Origin: a virus
Strand: one strand, 5' to 3'
Virus record (IMG/VR): IMGVR_UViG_3300013104_000028
Span: 1-56,020 of that record
Length of the DNA stretch: 56,020 nt
Shown: positions 7,920 through 55,755 of the stretch, piece by piece
Layout of the letters: every line of letters begins with the position of its first letter
How positions within the stretch are numbered: the stretch's first letter is position 1
Position numbers and translations under genes: made by a program
The notes under the pieces: model-generated
What the model was told of the DNA's origin: nothing
Databases searched by the model: none
Seen by the model: the letters and a program-made list of their open reading frames with translations, nothing else

Positions 7920-9434
7920 ATGTTTAACAAAGATTTTTATCCAACTCCTGCCAACATTATTGAACTAATGATTAATGGTGATGACTTAACCGGAAGAGTG
8001 GTTTTAGAACCTAGTTCAGGTAAAGGAGATATTATAGATATCCTGAATTCTAGGGGGGGCGAAGTTTTGTGCTGCGAATCTGACGAAAATCTTGCTAAAA
8101 TTTCCGCCAGTAAAGCACGATTCCTTAATTCAGATTTCCTGAAAGTACAATCTGATGAGATAAGTCATATTCATGCTATTTATATGAACCCGCCATTTAG
8201 TGCCGACGAAAAGCATATTTTACATGCTTGGAGTATTGCCCCATCTGGATGTCAAATCGTTGCACTGTGCAATCACAACACACTTTCAAACGATTATTCA
8301 AGGTCAAGAAAAGAACTACTTTCTATAATCAAAGATTATGGCAATAGCCAAAATTTAGGCGATGCATTCTCAGATAGCGAGAGACAAACGGGTGTAGATA
8401 TCGGCCTAATAAGATTATACAAACCCGTTTCCAACAGCTCATTTGGTGATTATTTCACCAGCGAAGATGATGACCCCGAAGCAAATCAAAGCGGCATAAT
8501 GAGTTATAATGCTGTCAGGGAAATCGTTCAACGATATGTGAATGCAGTTATGCTATATGATCAGGTGATAGAAAATGCCATAAAAATGAATTCTTTGATC
8601 GGTGAGGTTGCAGGATATAGTAAAGATTTAGTTTTCACCTGCACTCAGGATAAAAGGGAATTAACAAGAATCGAGTTTTCAAAAGAATTGCAGAAAAAAT
8701 CTTGGAACTGGATTTTCAACAAGTTGAACATGCAGAAGTACGCTACACGCGGATTACGGGAGGATATTAACAAGTTCGTTGAACAACAAGTAAAAGTTCC
8801 ATTCACAATGAAGAACATTTATAAGATGCTCGACCTAATTGTTGGTACACAATCTCAGAGAATGGATAAAGCACTATTAGAAGTTTTTGATAGGCTTACA
8901 ATGAGGTATCATGAAAACAGGTATGACATAGAGGGCTGGAAGACGAATAGCCATTATATGGTAAACCAGAAATTCATATTGGATAGCATTTGCTGGCAGG
9001 ACCAGAGGTGGTACAAAGGAGAATCAAAAATACAAGTTGATTATAGACTGGAAATCTTAGACGATCTAATGAAGGCGCTCTGTTACATTACCGGAGACCA
9101 ATACGAGGACAAAATCACCTTGTCACAAGCCATTAAGTACAATTACAAAGTTTCTCTTGACGGAATGGTTATCAGAGCTTATTTGAGTAGAAACGAAGCA
9201 GAAGCAAAAGTACAATATCTATTATCGAAGGGAAAAGAGGCAGTCATTATTCACGAAACTGATCATGTTTACGGTGAATGGTTCGACTGGACATATTTCG
9301 AATGCAAAGCATTTAAAAAAGGAACAATGCATTTCAAATTCAAACAGGAAAAAGTATGGGCATTGTTCAATCAGCACATAGGTAGAATCAAAGGTTTTCC
9401 TCTCCCAGAGAGTGTTTATAAGAAAGCATCATGA
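7920..9434 (+). CDS. DUF4942-type N6-adenine DNA methyltransferase
   Basis: 504 aa. Residues 1-180 are a class I methyltransferase: SAM-binding motif VVLEPSSGKGDI (28-39), acidic strand end CCESDE, and catalytic NPPF (90-93), so motif I precedes motif IV. The rest contains the WKTNSHYMVNQKFILDS and WYKGESKIQVDYRLEILDDL segments that I associate with the DUF4942 domain fused to phage methyltransferases. NPPF indicates N6-adenine methylation. There is no cognate nuclease next to it, so it is an orphan enzyme, perhaps protecting phage DNA from host restriction. Stop and next start overlap (ATGA). Confidence 0.8.
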   Translation: MFNKDFYPTPANIIELMINGDDLTGRVVLEPSSGKGDIIDILNSRGGEVLCCESDENLAKISASKARFLNSDFLKVQSDEISHIHAIYMNPPFSADEKHILHAWSIAPSGCQIVALCNHNTLSNDYSRSRKELLSIIKDYGNSQNLGDAFSDSERQTGVDIGLIRLYKPVSNSSFGDYFTSEDDDPEANQSGIMSYNAVREIVQRYVNAVMLYDQVIENAIKMNSLIGEVAGYSKDLVFTCTQDKRELTRIEFSKELQKKSWNWIFNKLNMQKYATRGLREDINKFVEQQVKVPFTMKNIYKMLDLIVGTQSQRMDKALLEVFDRLTMRYHENRYDIEGWKTNSHYMVNQKFILDSICWQDQRWYKGESKIQVDYRLEILDDLMKALCYITGDQYEDKITLSQAIKYNYKVSLDGMVIRAYLSRNEAEAKVQYLLSKGKEAVIIHETDHVYGEWFDWTYFECKAFKKGTMHFKFKQEKVWALFNQHIGRIKGFPLPESVYKKAS

Positions 9435-10219
9435 TCACTGCGACAAACGAAGATAACCTTTTAATGATGTCGAGGTATCAAGATAAACATTTTGATTTAG
9501 CAATAGTTGATCCAGAGTACGGAATCGGAGAAGCGGGTAAGAACCATAAATCGAGAAATACTTTAGTTAGGCAATCAGGAGGACAGATGAGAAGATGCCC
9601 TTCGAGCCAATATACTCGTAAAGATTGGGATAATAAACCTGCAGGACGTGAGTATTTTATAGAATTAAAACGAGTTTCAGTAGAGCAGGTGATATTTGGT
9701 GCAAACTATTTTGAATTTATTATGCCTGTTTGCAAACCTCCTCGAAGAAATGAGTTTGCTCAGTTCCTAATAGATCACCCGTTTGGTTTTATAATTTGGG
9801 ATAAAGTTAATGGTAACTCGGATTTTAGTGATTGTGAGGTGATCTATACTTCATTCAATTTTAAATCCTTTGTAATACCATACATGTGGGCGGGCATGAT
9901 GCAGGGAGTTAGTATAGCCAGGGGTACTGTAATGCAGGGCAATAAAAGACTTAACGAAAAACGTATTCATCCCACTCAAAAACCAGTTATGCTATACAAA
10001 TGGCTATTGATCCAATGCATTCAGAAATGGATTATGATTTCTCAAAAAGCCATTAAGGTCCTTGATACTAACAGAGGGTCTGGAAGCTTAGATATTGCTT
10101 GTTATGATTTGGGGATTGATTTAACCACCTGTGAATCCGATGCTGAATATTTTGATTTAGCCAACAAGAGGTTGGAACAAAACACAAGGCAGCAATCACT
10201 GTTTAAAAATGTAATATGA
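9431..10219 (+). CDS. DNA methyltransferase, beta-type order, with DPEY in place of DPPY
   Basis: 262 aa. Motif IV, normally (D/N)PPY, reads DPEY (27-30; AIVDPEYGIGEAG). Motif I is near the C-terminus (VLDTNRGSGS, 210-219), followed by the acidic TTCESDAEYFDLANKR helix. The order IV-I is that of beta-type DNA methyltransferases, which act on adenine or N4 of cytosine. HPTQKPVMLY (about 180-190) is the conserved segment before motif I in these enzymes. Glu replacing the second Pro of DPPY is odd and may alter or lower activity. It overlaps the preceding methyltransferase gene, so the two are co-translated; together they may modify phage DNA. Confidence 0.8.
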   Translation: MITATNEDNLLMMSRYQDKHFDLAIVDPEYGIGEAGKNHKSRNTLVRQSGGQMRRCPSSQYTRKDWDNKPAGREYFIELKRVSVEQVIFGANYFEFIMPVCKPPRRNEFAQFLIDHPFGFIIWDKVNGNSDFSDCEVIYTSFNFKSFVIPYMWAGMMQGVSIARGTVMQGNKRLNEKRIHPTQKPVMLYKWLLIQCIQKWIMISQKAIKVLDTNRGSGSLDIACYDLGIDLTTCESDAEYFDLANKRLEQNTRQQSLFKNVI

Positions 10220-11473: not shown

Positions 11474-12377
11474 AGAAATTACAGAAATAATTGTCAATTA
11501 TACAGAGAATAATCAATCATTGATGAGAAACGGCCAGGAGTTAGAAATTCCTGAGCTCCCGTCGGTAAACAATCCATTAACAGTTCCATCGATTAAGCAT
11601 AATTCTGATGATGACATCTTTGCAATAATCCTGATGTCGCTGGCAACTTCTTACACTGACTTAAGCTGGAAACAGCCATCAAAAAAAGATAAGGAATATA
11701 TGGCCAATAAACTTGCGGATAGCATTCCATCTAAATTTCCATCAATCAGACTGCATGAAATTCCAGAAGCATTTGCAAACGGTATACGTGGGAAATATGG
11801 TGAATTTATGGGGCTAGGGGTAGTAAGTTTCGAAAATTTTATTGAAGCTCATCTGGCATCAGAAAAACGAGAACAGTTCGCGAAAGAAGTTTTAATGATA
11901 CCAGAAAGGATAGAGCCAGATATCAATACAAAGTTTACAACAGCCAAAAATAACGCCTTAAAAGCATTCCAAAGTAAGAAAATTGGAAGCGATATTTCAT
12001 TGGTTGCCTTGGTAGTTTACACTTTTTTGGACCGCTTAAAATTGATTCAGTATTCCGCTAAAAGAAAATGGGATTTTGTTGATCTGGCGAAGGAAATTTT
12101 AATCAAAGGATTTACTCATCAGCTTTCTGTAACGATTAACAAACAAGATCGATTCAGGATAAGAAGGGATATCGAGAACGTGAAAGACGGATCAGCTGTT
12201 CAGTTGATTCTAAATACATCCAAGAGAGTGGCACTATACCAATACTTCGACGACCTGGCCTTGTCGGGTATCAACCTTGACGAACTGATAGATAGCAAGC
12301 AGTACTTGTTTAACGAAACCGAACCAATTAATAGTAATACTGAAAATACCGAACGATATGGAAGCGAACAAATTTAG
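11466..12377 (+). CDS. Replication-associated protein, unknown (possible helicase loader)
   Basis: 303 aa, soluble, with no Walker motif or cysteine cluster. The N-terminus (1-45) is low in structure. The middle (about 65-150) is helical, with SWKQPSKKDKEYMANKLAD and LHEIPEAFANGIRGKYGEFMGLG. Similar helical patterns occur in phage proteins encoded beside DnaD-like initiators. It starts inside the initiator gene and ends overlapping the RuvC-like gene by 20 bp, so all three form one operon. A role in primosome assembly is inferred from position. Confidence 0.6.
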   Translation: MSKEITEIIVNYTENNQSLMRNGQELEIPELPSVNNPLTVPSIKHNSDDDIFAIILMSLATSYTDLSWKQPSKKDKEYMANKLADSIPSKFPSIRLHEIPEAFANGIRGKYGEFMGLGVVSFENFIEAHLASEKREQFAKEVLMIPERIEPDINTKFTTAKNNALKAFQSKKIGSDISLVALVVYTFLDRLKLIQYSAKRKWDFVDLAKEILIKGFTHQLSVTINKQDRFRIRRDIENVKDGSAVQLILNTSKRVALYQYFDDLALSGINLDELIDSKQYLFNETEPINSNTENTERYGSEQI

Positions 12378-12849
12378 TGAGAGAGAACAAGGGAGAGGGT
12401 TAGTGCATAGAATTTCATTACCCAAGTTAGCGTATGTTATCGGAATCGATCCTGGTACAAAGACCGGGGTGGCTTTCTATTGTAAGCTTTCCAAAAAACT
12501 GATAATTGTGGCCACTATGAAAATCCATGAAGCATTCGATGCAGTCAGGAAAGTTAATCAATCCTCCAAAGAGCATGATGTTAAAATCTTTGTTCGTATA
12601 GAAGATGCTCGTAAGCGTAAACGCTATGGTGCCAATTCGAATGCAAAAGTTCAGGGAGCCGGAGCGATTAAAATCCAGTGTAAGCAATGGGAGGAGTTTT
12701 TGATCAGTGAAGGAATATCTTACCAGCTGGTCGCACCTCAATCAATCAGGACTAAGGTTGATGCAGTCCAGTTTAAAAAAATTACTGGATGGGAAGGAAG
12801 GACTTCAAATCATGGCAGGGATGCAGGCATGCTGGTTTTCGGCCTTTAA
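12358..12849 (+). CDS. RuvC-like Holliday junction resolvase
   Basis: 163 aa. An RNase H-fold nuclease with VIGIDPGTKTGVAFY (Asp31), VRIEDARK (Glu82) and NHGRDAGML (His152, Asp155), the acidic set of RuvC-family resolvases; the loop with GANSNAKVQGAGAI fits the family. The length is close to RuvC (about 170). It would cut branched intermediates of phage recombination and replication before packaging. The first 24 residues before the beta strand are extra, so a GTG start at 12403 is possible. Last gene of the replication operon. Confidence 0.82.
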   Translation: MEANKFSEREQGRGLVHRISLPKLAYVIGIDPGTKTGVAFYCKLSKKLIIVATMKIHEAFDAVRKVNQSSKEHDVKIFVRIEDARKRKRYGANSNAKVQGAGAIKIQCKQWEEFLISEGISYQLVAPQSIRTKVDAVQFKKITGWEGRTSNHGRDAGMLVFGL

Positions 12850-12890
12850 TGATTAACACACTAGGATAAAAAATATATTAATTACACAAT

Positions 12891-12915
12891 AAAGTAGATA
12901 CTTTATTTAGATTTG
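12891..12915 (+). promoter_or_regulatory. Probable promoter and operator of the defence-like module
   Basis: TAGATTTG (12908-12915) matches the -7 box, 11 nt before the ATG at 12927. An inverted repeat AAAGTA-GA-TACTTT (12891-12904) sits where the -33/-7 spacer would be. No clear -33 TTTG is present, so a regulator may be needed. Confidence 0.5.
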
Positions 12916-12926
12916 ACCAAATTAAA

Positions 12927-13862
12927 ATGACGGAACAATACACAACAGACCTCGGTGCTTATTTTTTAGGTAGCATAGACGATATTATTGACAATGATAG
13001 ATTAAGCCATTTGGAAGGTAGGATTAAATTAATTTTTACCTCGCCTCCATTTCCTTTAGCAAGGCCAAAAAAATACGGCAATTTGGAAGGTTTAGAATAT
13101 CTTGAATGGATCGGAAAGATTTCAAAATACTTGAAGAAACTTTTGACACCAGATGGCTCCATAGTACTTGAAATTGGTAATTCTTGGGTTAAAGGAGTTC
13201 CTGAAATGTCAACGCTGCCGTTAAAGTCGCTTATTCACTTTCAAGAGGAAGGTGATTATAAACTTTGTCAACAATTTATCTGGAATAATCCTGCAAAACT
13301 GCCTAGTCCAGCACAATGGGTTAATGTGAAAAGAATTAGAGTAAAGGATTCATTTACTAATATTTGGTGGATGGCTAATTCTCATTATCCTGAGGCTAAT
13401 AATAAAAACATTTTAAAAGAATATAGTGTCTCAATGAAGAAGCTATTAAAAGCCCAAAAATATAATTCTGGACCTCGACCATCTGAACATGTTATAGGTG
13501 AAAAGTCATTTCTAACCGATCACTCTGGAGCAATCCCATCTAATGTTTTGTCAATGTCTAACACATCATCAGAAGATGGATATGTAAAGTATTGCAAATC
13601 TATTGGAGTGAAAGCTCATCCAGCACGGATGCCTGCAGACTTAGTTCAGTTCTTCGTGGAATTTTTAACTAAGGAGGGTGATTTAGTTTTAGACCCTTTT
13701 GGTGGAAGCAATACTACCGGGCTTGTCGCTGAAAAATTAAATCGGAGTTGGATTGCAATTGATAGAGAAGTAGACTATATTCGAGGGTCCGAAGGAAGAT
13801 TCCCAAAGGAAATAAACATGCTCTCTAATAATGGCCAAAATATTAATACAGGAAACGCATAG
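12927..13862 (+). CDS. DNA methyltransferase of a restriction-like module (SPPF type)
   Basis: 311 aa. Motif IV is TSPPF (Ser39-Phe42) and motif I near the C-terminus is LDPFGGSNTTG (from Asp256), followed by the SWIAIDRE strand. The order IV then I with SPP(F/Y) is that of beta-type methyltransferases, many of which make N4-methylcytosine. KAHPARMP (about 230) is the usual pre-motif-I segment. It overlaps the following nuclease gene by 32 bp, which itself ends 4 nt before an ATPase gene. This points to a modification subunit for a restriction system. Confidence 0.85.
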   Translation: MTEQYTTDLGAYFLGSIDDIIDNDRLSHLEGRIKLIFTSPPFPLARPKKYGNLEGLEYLEWIGKISKYLKKLLTPDGSIVLEIGNSWVKGVPEMSTLPLKSLIHFQEEGDYKLCQQFIWNNPAKLPSPAQWVNVKRIRVKDSFTNIWWMANSHYPEANNKNILKEYSVSMKKLLKAQKYNSGPRPSEHVIGEKSFLTDHSGAIPSNVLSMSNTSSEDGYVKYCKSIGVKAHPARMPADLVQFFVEFLTKEGDLVLDPFGGSNTTGLVAEKLNRSWIAIDREVDYIRGSEGRFPKEINMLSNNGQNINTGNA

Positions 13863-14673
13863 CTCCTACTGGTTTGAAAGACTTTCAGCTATTTCCTATT
13901 ATACGGAAACAGAGTTTGAGACGAGATTAATAAATAGCTCTTCATCTCTATTTGCTAATTATTATGTTGTTCCATTCAAAAAGACGATTGCACTTGCTAC
14001 AAATTCTGAGGATACGACCACTCCTGATTTAGTATTCATTAAAAAAGACTATTCGTCTTGGATACTGGTAGAAGTTGAATTGAAAGGCCATCCACTTGAC
14101 CATGTGACCGGCCAAGTAAAGGTGATGTTAAAGCCATCTTATAACAAAACCGATATCATAGAATATATAATTAAACAAAATGGTCATGTACTTGATCCAC
14201 CAAATTTTGTTTTCGATAAACAAAAGCTCACCGACTTGATTTCGAATTTTAAAGCCGAAGTAATGGTAATTGTTGACGAGACCAAGGAAGCTTGGAGTGA
14301 ACCATTTAGGAAGTTGAAAGTACATCTATGTGTTGTACAAATGTACAAGAATGCTGATACTGAAGTCATATTGCGCATAAAGGGGCGATTTCCCCAAATA
14401 CACACTGGCGCGGTTTACTGTCGGTTAGCTAAACGGGATATTCCGAACGGTATTGAAATTATAAATGATCATGAATTATTAAATGATCTGAATACAGACG
14501 ATCAAATTGAAATCTATGTTAATGACCGTTTAACTAGGTGGACTGCAATGCGGACAAAGGCTAAAAAATTATATTTAAAATGTGCAGGTCCCATTTTTCC
14601 TTTAGAGCCAAAAAGAGATTTTGTCATCAAATTTGATGAATCTAAACAAGTATATTTATTTGAAAAAAACTAA
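13831..14673 (+). CDS. PD-(D/E)XK-type nuclease of the restriction-like module
   Basis: 280 aa. The first third has a PD-(D/E)XK core: TEFETRL helix (Glu28), TPDLVFI (Asp66), ILVEVELK (Glu83, Lys85), then HVTGQVKVML with Gln95. The rest (about 135-280) has alternating strands, with MVIVDETKEAWSEPFRKLK and KRDFVIKFDESKQVYLF, and may be a DNA-recognition or scaffold domain. I cannot name it beyond the nuclease fold. The gene starts inside the methyltransferase gene and is followed 4 nt later by the MORC-like ATPase gene, so it is likely the cutting component of a three-gene system. Confidence 0.7.
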   Translation: MAKILIQETHSSYWFERLSAISYYTETEFETRLINSSSSLFANYYVVPFKKTIALATNSEDTTTPDLVFIKKDYSSWILVEVELKGHPLDHVTGQVKVMLKPSYNKTDIIEYIIKQNGHVLDPPNFVFDKQKLTDLISNFKAEVMVIVDETKEAWSEPFRKLKVHLCVVQMYKNADTEVILRIKGRFPQIHTGAVYCRLAKRDIPNGIEIINDHELLNDLNTDDQIEIYVNDRLTRWTAMRTKAKKLYLKCAGPIFPLEPKRDFVIKFDESKQVYLFEKN

Positions 14674-14677
14674 TGTC

Positions 14678-16207
14678 ATGCTAGAAAGTCCACTAAAATT
14701 AGAAGTCGGTTTAGAAGTAATAAATTCGTACAAGCGTCTTTCATATAAGCAATGGTATGCTTTAGCTGAATATATTGATAATTCAACTCAAGCCTACTTT
14801 AATAACAAAGAAGTTCTTGATGCAGCTTATAAAATAGAAGCGGACAAACCTTCGGTTTGGATTGAAATCACTAAAGACGGAAAATCAACGACAATCAAAA
14901 TTTCTGACAATTCAATGGGAATGTCTTTTGATGAGCTAGAACATGCAGTGGTGATTGGCAAGCCCCCAATAAAAAGTGACGGACGATCAAAATATGGTTT
15001 AGGAATGAAGACAGCATCGTTTTGGCTAGGTGATAATTGGAGCGTGACAACAAAAAAGCTGGGCGAAACTGTACAACATTCGGTTGTAATTAACGCACAA
15101 GATTTAATTACTAATAAAGGTTCGTTACAGTACTCTAAGGTAGAAAACCTTGAGGCTACAAAACACTACACAATTGTCGAAATTACAGATGTCCATCAAC
15201 CTTTTACCACTAACATCCTAACTAAAGTTCAAAATTTTATTGCATCAATGTATCGATTTGACATAATGAATGATGAAATAAGAATTTATTTTAATAAAGA
15301 ACTGTTAGAATGGTCGTACGATGATACGTTCAAGAAATTGAAACCTATGTCGGACGGCAGTGACCGACTAAAAATAGAGTTTGATGTCGAATCTAAAAAA
15401 GTTACAGGATGGGCAGGGGTATTAGATGAAGGAGCAAGCAGAAGCAAAGCTGGATTTTCAATCTTCGTAAATAACAGAATTATTAAGGGTTGGCCTGAAT
15501 CTTACAAACCTGCAAGTATTTTTGGAACATCAGGTGGTCGAAATGATTTAATTAATCAACGTTTAGTCGGAGAATTATTTTTGGATGGTTTTGAAGTAAG
15601 CCATACTAAAGACGAAATTGTTTTTCAAGGAGACGAGGAGGAAGTTCTAGAATACCTTCTTCGTCAACACACTGCTGTTCTGAATGTACTGATAAATGAA
15701 CCTAAGAAAAAGGCTAAAATAAGTTCCGAAGATGAGGAAGCAATTAATCAAGCATTGGCTTATTTGGAACTTGAATTTAATTCTAAAGCGATATCTACTG
15801 CATATGAAACTTATGAAGTACCAGACGAAGAACTTTATGAATTGAATAAAGAGGTATTAATTAATACGGTATCAGGTGGAACTTTACCTCCAAAATTCGA
15901 CGTAAAGCTGGGATCGCTTCAAGTTTTGGTTTATCTGGATGGAAATATATCTGGTGCAGAACCTTATTTGAGTATAGGTATTTATCCTGATGCAGAACTA
16001 TTAAAGGTTGTCATCAATACGACACATCCTCACTTCCAACAACTAGCATTAATGGAAGTCGTAATGAACTATGTCCGTCATTGCGTATACGATGGTGTTG
16101 CAGAGTATAAGGCGTATAAGTATTCTCCAGAAGAATTTAAACCAGACACCATAAAGTCAATTAAAGACATGTTGCTTAGAGCTTCCTACACCGTTAAGAT
16201 GGATTAA
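14678..16207 (+). CDS. GHKL ATPase, MORC/Hsp90/MutL type
   Basis: 509 aa from ATG 14678 (MLESPLKLEV), 4 nt after the nuclease stop; an earlier in-frame ATG at 14621 would lie within the nuclease gene. The Bergerat fold is clear: N box AEYIDNSTQAY (Glu31, Asp34, Asn35), G1 box KISDNSMGM (Asp77, Gly81), G2 box YGLGMKTASF (Gly107, Gly109, Lys111). A transducer-like domain follows (about 230-330, with FVNNRIIKGWPESYKP and GELFLDGFEVSHTKDEI). This pattern is that of prokaryotic MORC-like ATPases, which have been described with methylases and nucleases in restriction-type operons. It probably clamps DNA on ATP binding and controls the neighbouring nuclease. Confidence 0.85.
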   Translation: MLESPLKLEVGLEVINSYKRLSYKQWYALAEYIDNSTQAYFNNKEVLDAAYKIEADKPSVWIEITKDGKSTTIKISDNSMGMSFDELEHAVVIGKPPIKSDGRSKYGLGMKTASFWLGDNWSVTTKKLGETVQHSVVINAQDLITNKGSLQYSKVENLEATKHYTIVEITDVHQPFTTNILTKVQNFIASMYRFDIMNDEIRIYFNKELLEWSYDDTFKKLKPMSDGSDRLKIEFDVESKKVTGWAGVLDEGASRSKAGFSIFVNNRIIKGWPESYKPASIFGTSGGRNDLINQRLVGELFLDGFEVSHTKDEIVFQGDEEEVLEYLLRQHTAVLNVLINEPKKKAKISSEDEEAINQALAYLELEFNSKAISTAYETYEVPDEELYELNKEVLINTVSGGTLPPKFDVKLGSLQVLVYLDGNISGAEPYLSIGIYPDAELLKVVINTTHPHFQQLALMEVVMNYVRHCVYDGVAEYKAYKYSPEEFKPDTIKSIKDMLLRASYTVKMD

Positions 16208-16234: not shown

Positions 16235-16897
16235 ATGAAAAAAAAGATAAACTCATTACCGATGATACTCGGTCTGTTAACTGTAGTTTCATTCAGCTGC
16301 CTAACACTAGTTGTGCTACCAGCTTTTTCAGAACAATTCAACTTTTCTAGCGACAAAACCTCGAACATCGGCAGTACAATTGGAGGTATAGTAGGCCCCA
16401 TTGTGGGTATGTTTTCCGCTTACCTTCTTTACGAAGCGCTAACAGCGCAACAAGAAGGCAATAAGGCCCAAAGAATTAAAAATGATAGTGACATAATATT
16501 TATGTTGATCAATCAGTTGGATAAAGAATACGATACCTTTTCAACTTTTGATAGAATTAGTGGCGCACCAACCACCTTGAAAGGATTCGAGGCATTGCAG
16601 CATTTTTCAGGAAAATTTCAAAAAGACAAAAAAAACCAACTTCTATTATTGATATCAAACGAGATGTCAAAATTGTGGTACCTATTGGAATCATTCGAGA
16701 TAATTAGAAATCAAGTAAATGAATTAAATTTAAACTCTGGGAGCGAGACAGTATTTAACAAACAATTGAGCTTGTATTATCAAACAAAATTCCAGGAACC
16801 AGTTGAGTTAATAACCAGGGAAACCAAAGCACTTAACATTTCAACATTTGTTAGGATGAGAGCTATTCATTCCAAAAATTTTGTTAAATCAGGATAA
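16235..16897 (+). CDS. Two-TM protein resembling AbiR-type abortive infection proteins
   Basis: 220 aa. TM1 spans about 9-30 (MILGLLTVVSFSCLTLVVLP) and TM2 about 45-65 (GSTIGGIVGPIVGMFSAYLL), followed by a cytoplasmic helical domain (70-220) with QQEGNKAQRIKNDSDIIFML. This layout, with a Gly-rich second TM running into a helix, is typical of proteins annotated as putative phage abortive infection protein. It lies 27 bp behind the MORC-like ATPase gene with no promoter visible, so it belongs to the same operon. It may be an effector that harms the membrane after infection is sensed, or a separate anti-phage gene. Confidence 0.6.
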   Translation: MKKKINSLPMILGLLTVVSFSCLTLVVLPAFSEQFNFSSDKTSNIGSTIGGIVGPIVGMFSAYLLYEALTAQQEGNKAQRIKNDSDIIFMLINQLDKEYDTFSTFDRISGAPTTLKGFEALQHFSGKFQKDKKNQLLLLISNEMSKLWYLLESFEIIRNQVNELNLNSGSETVFNKQLSLYYQTKFQEPVELITRETKALNISTFVRMRAIHSKNFVKSG

Positions 16898-20799: not shown

Positions 20800-22275
20800 A
20801 TGGGCAAAGAGCAAGAGATTGTAGAGAAGAAGGATGAAACGCCACTGGTTAAGTTGGTGTTGGCTATTGGTCAAAAGGTAGAAGGAACGGATGAGGCATT
20901 GGCACAATACGATCCTTTGCAGCATGATGTTTTTAACATAGGTAAGCGACCAAAAAAGGACGTTCAGAAGCCAACAGGCAGAAAGGATGAACAGGGTAAG
21001 GATATCATAACCTTAACCAAAGAGGAGGTAAACAGAATAGGTTTGCCGTTGCAAAAACTGATCGTTAATCGTAGGGCGGCATTCATGAATGTGAGCAATA
21101 TGCAGATTGATGCAAAACCTAAAAATACAGATGAAGAGACACTATTAAAAATGATTGAGAAATGTCGGGAGGATAACAAGCTTAAATATAAAGCAAAAGA
21201 GATTGCTAAAAGAATGATGTCTGAACTGCAAGTGGCTTCTCTGTGGTACAGCGAAGATGTCGAAAAAGGATATTGGGGGGAATTAGCACCAAATTCAATA
21301 AAAAGAATGAGGATGCGTGTTTTAAGTCCATTGTTGGGCGATACGTTGCTGCCTGTTTTTAACGGTTTGGGTGATTTGGTATATTTCGGCAGGAAGTATA
21401 CTACAACGAAGGATATAACCGGGTTGGAGATTTCTGAAGAATTGGTTAGAACTGCAAACGAAAAAGTTGTTCACTTCGATATATACACCGATACCTACAT
21501 ATACAAGTTTGAAGAGATCAGCGGGGGGTGGATTATGAAAGATAAAATACCCCATTCCTACGGCAAAATCCCAGTAATATATTACCATCAAGAGCGTCCG
21601 GAGTGGGCTGATGTACAATCTCAAATTACCAGATTGGAAACCGTTCTATCCAACTTCGCTGATACCAACGACTATAACGGATCGCCTATTTTGGTTTCCA
21701 AGGGTGTTATTAAAGGTTTTTCAGCTAAAGGAGAAAGAGGAAAAGTTATCGAACTTGCAGGACCTGATTCAGATATCAAATATGTAACCTGGGAACAAGC
21801 TCCGGTTTCTATCAAACTTGAAATCGATTCTTTAGTTGATTTTATTTACACATGTACCCAAACGCCAAATATAAGTTTCAAAGAGATGTCAGGGTTAGGT
21901 GCAGCTCCCTCAGGTGTTGCTTTTGATAGAATTCTCATGGACCCTCATTTAGCAGCGCAGAATAAATTGGATGAAAGCTACGGTGAAGGCGCTCAACGCG
22001 AATTAAGCTTTCTTAAGTCAGCATGTTTGTCGATAAATACATCAATAAAAAGTGCCTCAAATTTAATTTTAAGCCCGATTTTTACTTTGTTCCGCATAAA
22101 TGATACTAGAGAAGATATAGATAATGCTGCTGCTGCTTTTAATGGTGGTATAGCGTCCTTGGAGACTGCTGTTAAAATGGCGGGACTTACCGATGATGAT
22201 AATGTAGAGGTTAGAGCTATAAAAGCAGCTTCCGATACCTTAGGGAATGATGTAGATGATGTAATTCAGCAGTGA
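20800..22275 (+). CDS. Portal protein (SPP1 gp6-like)
   Basis: 491 aa, directly after terL. The N-terminus is charged. LPLQKLIVNRRAAFMNVSNM (about 78-97) starts the portal body. HSYGKIPVIYYHQERPEWAD and LETVLSNFADTNDYNGSPIL are characteristic of SPP1/T4-type portals of Bacteroidota siphophages, and MSGLGAAPSGVAFDRILMDP matches the tunnel/stem helix region. The length fits (about 450-500). A dodecameric ring of this protein forms the DNA gate of the head. Confidence 0.88.
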   Translation: MGKEQEIVEKKDETPLVKLVLAIGQKVEGTDEALAQYDPLQHDVFNIGKRPKKDVQKPTGRKDEQGKDIITLTKEEVNRIGLPLQKLIVNRRAAFMNVSNMQIDAKPKNTDEETLLKMIEKCREDNKLKYKAKEIAKRMMSELQVASLWYSEDVEKGYWGELAPNSIKRMRMRVLSPLLGDTLLPVFNGLGDLVYFGRKYTTTKDITGLEISEELVRTANEKVVHFDIYTDTYIYKFEEISGGWIMKDKIPHSYGKIPVIYYHQERPEWADVQSQITRLETVLSNFADTNDYNGSPILVSKGVIKGFSAKGERGKVIELAGPDSDIKYVTWEQAPVSIKLEIDSLVDFIYTCTQTPNISFKEMSGLGAAPSGVAFDRILMDPHLAAQNKLDESYGEGAQRELSFLKSACLSINTSIKSASNLILSPIFTLFRINDTREDIDNAAAAFNGGIASLETAVKMAGLTDDDNVEVRAIKAASDTLGNDVDDVIQQ

Positions 22276-23330
22276 TGACAAATCCTATAAACAAGAAGTA
22301 CGAGAAGCTTCATTTTAACGAACAAGATCGTGTTGTGAATTATATTAATAAGCAATATGATTCTATAATAGCTCAGATAACCCCTTTAATTGAATCTGGG
22401 GCCGCAAGATCACTCGTTCAACGAAAGTTGAATATCCTTCTTAAACAATTCAGAGCAAATGTAACGCTGAAAATAGAGTCCGGTGTTAAATACTCATGGA
22501 ATCTATCTAACCAGAAGAACATTGCATATCTTGAGCAGAGGCTTGCTGGTTTTAATATTCCGGATAGGATAAAGAAAGCTTTATTTAGCCCAAATCACAA
22601 TCGATTAGAAGCATTTATTCAGCGAAAAGAAGGTGGATTAAATTTGTCTGATCGGGTATGGAAAACAGCTGAACAGTTTAAGAACAATGTTGATCTGAAT
22701 TTAGATATAGGTATCGCTGAGGGTAAGGCTGCAAAACAAATTGGCCGTGAACTACGACAGAATCTTAATGAGCCTGAACGACTGTTTAGACGAGTGAGGG
22801 ACCTCAAAGGAAATTTGAGACTTTCTAAACCAGCTAAGGCGTACAATCCTGGTCAAGGAGTTTACAGGTCTGCAGCGAGAAATACCGAACGTTTAGGTAG
22901 AACCGAAATAAATATGGGTTATAGAGCTGCTGACGATGCTGCTTGGGAAAACAATCCGTTAGTTTTAGGCTACGAAATAAGGTTATCTGCGACCGCTAAA
23001 CCAAAAACAAGATGTGAACTTTGCCGAACCCTTGAAGGTAAATACCCCTCCTGGTTTAAATTCCGAGGTTGGCACCCTAACTGCCTATGTTTCAAAATCC
23101 CAATTCTCATGGCTGATGAAATGATGGCTAAATATCAGAAGCTAGTGGCAAAAGGGGAAGATACTGATGATGCTATTTTTGAATTGCAAAAAGGAACCCG
23201 AATAGCCTTTCCTCCTGAGGCGTTTAATTTATGGGTTAACAATAATAGGGATAGAGTAATGGAGTGGAAGGATAAACCTTATTGGTGGAAAGACAACTCG
23301 CATTTTATTTCCAATATGCTCTTGATTTGA
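22275..23330 (+). CDS. Head morphogenesis protein, Mu gpF-like
   Basis: 351 aa from ATG 22275, which overlaps the portal stop (TGATG). The N-terminal 190 residues are helical. The C-terminal module RLGRTEINMGYRAADDAAWE, a KTRCELCRTLEGKY cysteine pair and FRGWHPNCLCFKIPI (His, Cys, Cys) form the Mu F/SPP1 gp7 minor head domain with its zinc-like Cys/His set. These proteins are injected or help assemble the prohead. Order portal, then Mu F-like, is typical. Confidence 0.87.
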   Translation: MTNPINKKYEKLHFNEQDRVVNYINKQYDSIIAQITPLIESGAARSLVQRKLNILLKQFRANVTLKIESGVKYSWNLSNQKNIAYLEQRLAGFNIPDRIKKALFSPNHNRLEAFIQRKEGGLNLSDRVWKTAEQFKNNVDLNLDIGIAEGKAAKQIGRELRQNLNEPERLFRRVRDLKGNLRLSKPAKAYNPGQGVYRSAARNTERLGRTEINMGYRAADDAAWENNPLVLGYEIRLSATAKPKTRCELCRTLEGKYPSWFKFRGWHPNCLCFKIPILMADEMMAKYQKLVAKGEDTDDAIFELQKGTRIAFPPEAFNLWVNNNRDRVMEWKDKPYWWKDNSHFISNMLLI

Positions 23331-54534: not shown

Positions 54535-55755
54535 TTAAACTCCAAATATTTCGTCTGTTAATTGATCTAATTCGTCATCTTTTCTAAGGTCATTGAGATA
54601 AATTTGATGTACAGCCAATGAACTATGACCTACGAGGTCCATCGATTGCATCGGATTTTTAACAACGTCAATCGCAAGTCTCGAAAATGTATGTCTTGCA
54701 ATGTGGGAAGTGGCTTTTTTTGTTATACCTGCCATAAATGCAAGTTTTTTTAAATTTCGATTCACAACAGCAGTAGCCACATTCTTTCTCCTGTATTCTT
54801 CCCTGTCATTTTCAAAATCAGTCAATTTTGGATTTGATAGGAATGAATAAAACGGAAATAATCTCTCAAAACGTTTATAATATCTATTGACAATTGTCTG
54901 AGCTTTGGGTATTAACTTACAACTCACATTATTTTTCCCAGTGCCGTTTGCAGCGGTGTACCTACTTTCTTCAAATTGTTCTGGATATGCCTTTAATAAT
55001 GCGCCGACGCGGGAACCTCTTATATATATCTGCAATAGAAAAAAATCTCGGACCATATATAGTAGAGAGCCTTCTTCAAGTTGAAGGTTTTCAAAATTGG
55101 CAACATCCGCTGCGGACCATTTTTGAATAGGACGTTTCTTTTGCGAAACCGAAAATTTTTGAACATCAGGAGGGGTTGGTTTCCCTCCATATCGTTCAAC
55201 TACTCGTTTTATAGTATTAATTTTTTTATGAGCAGTTGCACCCACGTTAATTTGTTTGATTACTTTATCTCCTAATTTGATTTCACTCGCAAGAAAGGAA
55301 GCATAGTCCTCATACCAGTTTAAGTTTATTGAATTAAGGTCGGTCGTTTCGCTATTGAAAAACTTTTGTAATTGTCCTTTGTATTCAAAAACGTTTTTAT
55401 AAGTACCTGTTTTTTTAGCTTTCTTTAAACGTGAAAGTTCCATCTCTAAAGCTTTATCTAAAGTGAAAGTTATTTTTTCCTCAAAGAAATCGGAAGAGGG
55501 CTTTTCACCGTTGAGGACTTTAATCAGCTCTCTTTCATATTCTGCGAATTTCTCTGAGATTAGATTATTAATGTATGCAGCATTTTGAACTTTACTTTTC
55601 ACCCTGGAAGTTTTTGAATCCCAATCTTTGGGCATGCAAGAATATATGCTTTTTCTCTTTGGTTTCCCGTGTAAATAAAATTGTAGCTGGATCGGATGGG
55701 ACCCATCAGAATGTGTTTTACCTTTGAATAATTTAACTTTTAAATTGATAGACAT
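54535..55755 (-). CDS. int: Tyrosine integrase
   Basis: 406 aa. The N-terminal 95 residues are an arm-type DNA-binding domain (VKLFKGKTHSDGSHPIQLQF). The SAM-like core-binding domain (95-200) includes TGTYKNVFEYKGQLQKFFNS. The catalytic domain has Arg249 (RGSRVGALL), His351-x-x-Arg354 (SHIARHTF), His377 (LVGHSSL) and Tyr386 (QIYLND). Length and layout match Bacteroidota phage/element integrases. It recombines attP with attB. Arm repeats in its own upstream region (55772-55791) suggest that bound integrase reduces its own transcription. Confidence 0.94.
   Translation of the reverse strand: MSINLKVKLFKGKTHSDGSHPIQLQFYLHGKPKRKSIYSCMPKDWDSKTSRVKSKVQNAAYINNLISEKFAEYERELIKVLNGEKPSSDFFEEKITFTLDKALEMELSRLKKAKKTGTYKNVFEYKGQLQKFFNSETTDLNSINLNWYEDYASFLASEIKLGDKVIKQINVGATAHKKINTIKRVVERYGGKPTPPDVQKFSVSQKKRPIQKWSAADVANFENLQLEEGSLLYMVRDFFLLQIYIRGSRVGALLKAYPEQFEESRYTAANGTGKNNVSCKLIPKAQTIVNRYYKRFERLFPFYSFLSNPKLTDFENDREEYRRKNVATAVVNRNLKKLAFMAGITKKATSHIARHTFSRLAIDVVKNPMQSMDLVGHSSLAVHQIYLNDLRKDDELDQLTDEIFGV

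Follow-up and report, generated by a model that had tools for sequence, protein, structure and literature searches.

Prokaryotic MORC ATPases were tied to restriction-modification through their gene neighbourhoods in 2008, when they were found in restriction-modification operons, a minority of them with methylases or restriction enzymes and without a helicase, and were proposed to loop DNA (Iyer et al. 2008, PMC2292703). The SFII helicase is non-obligatory in that description (PMC2292703), and in 2021 the biochemistry of prokaryotic MORC proteins was still reported to be poorly understood (PMC8011034). In the Shedu class, formerly paraMORC3, VcSduA, in which a GHKL ATPase and a nuclease are fused, is phage-protective (PMC12137116). 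A class of operons joining a MORC ATPase, a methylase and a nuclease, occasionally without a helicase, has thus been known since 2008, and we read the cassette analyzed here as a reduced variant of that class.

The window, meaning the whole stretch of DNA that we analyzed (56,020 nucleotides), is a 56-kb IMG/VR virus record with integrase (54535-55755), terminase, portal and tape-measure genes. Because the terminases nearest to its own are those of Porphyromonas phages (56% identity), the host is probably Bacteroidales-like and the window, judged by its sequence, probably a temperate phage. Three plus-strand genes occupy positions 12927-16207, as first annotated, flanked by the gene of a Holliday-junction resolvase (12358-12849) on one side and by the packaging genes on the other: a methyltransferase gene (M, 12927-13862), a gene for a PD-(D/E)XK-fold protein (N, 13831-14673) and a MORC-type ATPase gene (A, 14678-16207). 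M and N overlap by 32 bp, and a 4-bp gap separates N from A. The GC content of the three genes is 0.345-0.362, compared to 0.40-0.42 in the neighbouring resolvase, terminase and portal genes, which fits the expectation for cargo. Comparison with Porphyromonas phage005b, to which the resolvase and the terminase small subunit matched weakly and ParB did not match, is suggestive of an insertion of M-N-A relative to that phage.

Other genes of the window were also recorded. The gene at 16235-16897 (plus strand), which starts 27 bp past A, encodes a 220-aa protein that weakly matches AbiP (E 0.004) and phrog_8999 (8e-5) and has two hydrophobic segments near its N-terminus; from its position and sequence it is possibly another defence gene of this cargo slot. 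The phage has another pair of modification genes at 7920-10219 (plus strand), where the gene for a DUF4942 protein (504 aa, with a methyltransferase-like N-terminus and an NPPF motif) overlaps that for a 262-aa N6_N4-type methyltransferase. At 22272-23330 (plus strand) the C-terminal half of a head-morphogenesis protein resembles PHROG 16625, 'Bxa ADP-ribosyl transferase' (4e-54).

The initial annotation gave the three genes their own promoter with an inverted repeat. The repeat is present just 5' of M: AATAAAGTA-GA-TACTTTATT (12888-12907) is perfect, with 9-bp arms, and arms of such length occurred in 0.6% of random 77-bp windows in the phage genome and in 1.7% of shuffles. Immediately 3' of it lies TAGATTTG (12908-12915), which fits what we take to be the Bacteroidota -7 consensus, TAnnTTTG. 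The repeat is a possible operator; a conserved operator was rejected, as the palindrome is local to the window and has no counterpart upstream of M in the relatives. Since, in addition, a search for a sigma-70-type promoter upstream of M gave no match, the claim of a separate promoter is unproven.

M encodes a 311-aa N6_N4-type DNA methyltransferase (Pfam PF01555, 2.3e-36; PADLOC MTase_II PDLC03323, 2e-87) with the motifs TSPPF and FGGSNTTG, in agreement with its first description as an SPPF-type enzyme. With the methyltransferase of the PvuII plasmid pPvu1 it shares 44% identity, and from this similarity its probable target is C-N4 in CAGCTG or a site like it. The window shows no depletion of CAGCTG (19 occurrences against 15 expected), which neither supports nor refutes such methylation. 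Unlike the PvuII system, the cassette has no R.PvuII or C protein, and restriction would fall to N and A. The plasmid methyltransferase nearest to M (51%), on an Aurantiacibacter plasmid (L004, 5941-11628), has a DEAD/DEAH helicase, a 'DNA modification system-associated small protein' and an AAA ATPase as neighbours; no N match was found in that locus. This neighbourhood shows that M.PvuII-like enzymes serve several different defence operons.

A, 509 aa counted from the ATG, matches Pfam HATPase_c_3 (PF13589, 1.2e-18). Its GHKL/Bergerat ATP-binding domain (14711-15277) carries all the motifs that had been noted at the outset, and the corresponding residues, E31xxD34N35, D77xxxG81, G107xGxK111 and T165, are invariant in 32 homologues. 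The same holds for G259 and R267 of the MORC signature G259-F-x-h-h-x-x-x-R267 in the following S5-type domain (15278-15697). Against the published signature GhXhhpXXRhl (PMC2292703), GFSIFVNNRII of the window departs at one position (V for a polar residue), and GFALLRRGRVV/I of the related proteins of L002 and L003 fits. The best three Foldseek matches were all MORC3 (5ix2, 5ix1 and 6o1e). With the four GHKL motifs, the S5 signature and MORC ATPases as its nearest structures, A has the features by which Iyer et al. defined the family, and on sequence and model it is a MORC-family ATPase, beyond merely MORC-like, and so a bacterial relation of the animal MORC proteins. A C-terminal alpha+beta domain (15890-16204), with conserved N447, HP450-451, E476 and L500, is a candidate interface with N.

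N encodes 280 aa, and its structure model (pLDDT 90) bears out the proposed fold. A predicted nuclease core (residues 1-173; 13831-14349) has the alpha-beta-beta-beta-alpha-beta arrangement of the PD-(D/E)XK superfamily over residues 26-173, with alpha26-35, beta67-71, beta77-83 and alpha89-100 among its elements, and is followed by an all-beta barrel (residues 179-280; 14365-14670). Foldseek ranked E. coli SduA, a defence nuclease, first (probability 1.00), followed by the dsDNA endonuclease EndoMS (0.99 and 0.97). Weaker matches were the N-terminal domain of LlaJI.R1 (0.96) and VRN1 (0.63), which we take to be B3-type DNA-binding domains; for this reason the model suggests that the barrel is a candidate site-recognition domain, reading the target site. 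The barrel is less conserved than the core (mean pairwise identity 22% versus 32%).

In the family alignment E26, D66, W77, E81, E83, H91 and Q95 are invariant (30/30 sequences), giving the signature E26-D66-E81-x-E83-H91-Q95. Of the nuclease residues first proposed, Asp66, Glu83 and Lys85, the two acidic ones are kept throughout the homologues, together with E81, whereas lysine at position 85 occurs in one of the 30 sequences, that of the window, and was rejected as the catalytic lysine. The family thus has the conserved Asp and Glu of PD-(D/E)XK enzymes, does not have the Lys of (D/E)XK and carries a Glu at the alternative ExE position, so that the D66/E83/K85 triad must give way to a D-ExE site. 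Within the superfamily an acidic residue can stand where the lysine usually is (PMC1189080). The invariance of D66, E81, E83, H91 and Q95, with the similar pattern in cousin proteins, indicates at the sequence level that an active site has been maintained.

These cousins, weaker matches to N in Bacteroidota genomes (L101-L110), are nucleases of 290-342 aa, several of them fused to RAMA or DUF5655. They keep essentially the signature of N, with variation to A or E near the first Glu in some of them, and no MORC gene was found within the short loci fetched. N itself matched no model in Pfam, PADLOC, NCBIfam or PHROGs, and a search against PDB sequences gave no convincing match and no PvuII chain.

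Relatives were retrieved with an alignment of A and plasmid relatives, which yielded 80 genome loci and 5 viral loci; single-sequence scans with N (viral and genome collections) and with A (viral contigs) gave no match, nor did the viral scan with the N alignment. We defined the family as the loci that match A over its whole length (L008-L037, L044 and L088; n=32; L038 ends inside A). In the tree of A these group in a single supported clade that is distinct from the Z1-helicase type; L092 falls with the latter. An N gene is present in the operon of A in all 32 informative relatives, from many phyla. When the N profile alone was run against about 1,490 genomes of three phyla, A lay beside every strong match, so the obligate pairing is no artefact of retrieval by A. 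The co-occurrence of the three families on which the first reading depended is therefore repeated across the relatives, N-only searches included. Bacterial genomes gave most of the relatives, and the idea that the set is peculiar to phages had to be dropped. A second prophage (L088) carries the same set between integrase and head genes. The family is widespread and largely uncatalogued.

M is less tightly coupled. Identities of N and A are correlated across the relatives with a rho of 0.84, compared to 0.30-0.41 for M with either. An adjacent M.PvuII-like gene is found in 26 of 32 relatives; L008 and L021 have another N6_N4 enzyme instead, L013 a D12-type enzyme and genome G164 a different methyltransferase, and L025 and L030 have none adjacent. 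A methyltransferase nevertheless directly adjoins N, A or a helicase in nearly all loci. By these sequence comparisons N and A are the core and M is exchangeable. In L008, L021 and G164 the different methyltransferase is preceded by a 750-aa protein with a weak GHKL match and no name in NCBIfam, encoded 5' of the alternative methyltransferase-N-A operon (L008, 3502-5772; L021, 3702-5954; L123, 6332-8587). Iyer et al. described a paraMORC1 arrangement, to which these loci may correspond.

The operons fall into three layouts (L018, which is cut, stands outside the counts). M-helicase-N-A was found at 9 loci and M-A-helicase-N at 14, the latter forming a separate clade (100/100); M-N-A without a helicase was found in the window, L008, L009, L013, L016, L020, L021, L037 and L088, and the strictly minimal set in the same loci except L008 and L021. 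The helicase, present in 23 relatives (about 70%), is ~385-415 aa long, ResIII/XPB-like, and resembles PbeA and the Dnd restriction helicase. The helicase-less loci form one clade (96/95) beside helicase-bearing clades, whose members come from Bacteroidota, Electryoneota, Cloacimonadota and two viruses, with Bacteroidota and related phyla in the majority; their A proteins are 38-44% identical to that of the window. No helicase of the relatives' type was found in the window record, in line with the initial annotation. Supply of the helicase in trans was rejected for four helicase-less hosts (G001, G002, G003 and G164), as no homologue at E <= 1e-10 was found anywhere in these genomes; in the same search two positive-control genomes matched near 1e-180. 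The window holds the smallest form of the family, since it is without the helicase that most relatives have.

As in the MORC and paraMORC operons of 2008, a MORC-family GHKL+S5 ATPase, a methylase and a restriction-fold nuclease share one operon here; the SFII helicase, seen in about 70% of cases, is missing. In the Rad25-type operons of that study the helicase is usually fused to the nuclease, whereas in this family it is separate or absent. The RE-fold protein described there has the pattern E-D-ExK, whereas N is a separate nuclease-fold protein with E-D-ExE-H-Q and a C-terminal barrel. With Shedu proteins such as VcSduA the cassette shares a GHKL ATPase and a PD-(D/E)XK nuclease fold, but these are encoded by two genes, the ATPase is MORC-family and not paraMORC3, a methyltransferase is linked, and N has ExE in place of ExK; neither N nor its family matched Pfam DUF4263. 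Operons with MORC, a Z1 helicase and PD-(D/E)XK, with or without AIPR (for example L002, L003 and L006), have a related ATPase (about 26-30% identity over the N-terminal ~330 residues) but differ in the Z1 helicase, a cytosine-C5 methylase and the nuclease; BLASTP showed no similarity between N and their PD-(D/E)XK proteins and gives no support for homology. Finally, A resembles MzaB of MZA through a weak GHKL-domain match (E 2e-7), at 29.7 bits against a curated cut-off of 850, and no other MZA model was among the matches listed for M, N or the gene downstream of A.

No model for N or for the M-N-A system exists in PADLOC, NCBIfam, Pfam or PHROGs, and no published system with exactly these genes was found in the open literature. 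The locus had been put forward as an undescribed system: this is so inasmuch as no tested library or open paper defines a system of these exact families, but in kind it was described in 2008 (Iyer et al. 2008, PMC2292703). Relative to the libraries tested and to open papers, what is new is the nuclease family with its ExE signature, the division into three layouts and a helicase-less clade that has members carried by prophages.

On balance, we consider it probable, with moderate confidence, that the prophage carries in this cassette a restriction-modification system powered by a MORC ATPase and reduced to its minimal form, without a helicase. This reading is supported by the 32/32 pairing of N with A and their co-divergence, by the invariant active sites, by the likeness of N to SduA and EndoMS and of A to MORC3, by the operons and looping of Iyer et al., and by the second prophage with the same set. 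Against it stand the missing catalytic lysine, for which acidic replacement has precedent, the two relatives with no adjacent methyltransferase, and the weak structural matches behind the role of the barrel. We infer an antiphage activity in which site-specific cleavage would depend on methylation and be gated by ATP. M would mark resident DNA as self by methylating a short palindrome, probably CAGCTG or a near variant; N, carrying an ExE-type PD-(D/E)XK active site, would find the unmethylated site through its C-terminal barrel; A would dimerize upon ATP binding, clamp and loop the DNA and couple site recognition to cutting, licensing or pairing N subunits; and unmethylated foreign DNA, such as that of a competing phage, would be cut by N. 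That the MORC ATP clamp is the only motor, licensing attack on unmethylated DNA by an ExE-type nuclease equipped with a recognition barrel and working without any helicase or translocase, we put forward more tentatively, as somewhat doubtful.

It is less likely, though still worth weighing, that N and A are a Shedu-like effector split into two genes, which would respond to some structure of the phage, for example its replication intermediates or DNA ends, with M mainly protecting the host or having joined later. N comes nearest in fold to E. coli SduA, the fused VcSduA is phage-protective (PMC12137116), and M is both the less coupled partner and absent beside two relatives. A modification-independent effector does not account well for a methyltransferase that keeps its place across all three layouts and, where the PvuII-like enzyme is missing, is usually replaced by another type, nor for the lack of a DUF4263 match in N.

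We regard as improbable a role in counter-defence or regulation, in which M would shield phage DNA from CAGCTG-type restriction by the host, and N and A would be a DNA-binding or compaction pair with no nuclease activity. Orphan methyltransferases are common in phages, N has no canonical lysine, and MORC proteins, for example MORC2, can compact DNA (PMC12216690). A pair of that kind is hard to reconcile with five residues (D66, E81, E83, H91 and Q95) kept invariant in 30 divergent sequences, with cousins, fused to other domains, that show a similar pattern, and with relatives that are mainly bacterial and in their majority paired with an SFII helicase, as restriction systems are. That the cassette is a decayed remnant of a larger MORC/helicase restriction system, its helicase lost and restriction gone, is very improbable: most relatives do have the helicase and the helicase-less clade lies beside them, but that clade is old, diverse and spread over several phyla, with intact active sites and open frames, so that the loss is not recent, and two independent prophages retain the helicase-less form.

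The nuclease family with the E-D-ExE-H-Q pattern, which the RAMA- and DUF5655-fused cousins share, and the system itself are candidates for defence-gene libraries. With one ATPase, one nuclease and one methyltransferase, the helicase-free set is small enough to reconstitute and would permit a direct test of whether MORC clamping or looping reads the methylation state of DNA and gates a nuclease, with implications for what the silencing ATPases of eukaryotes did ancestrally. If the restriction-modification reading with an ATP clamp alone is true, this machine would link MORC mechanistically to the methylation and cutting of DNA in the simplest setting that nature offers.
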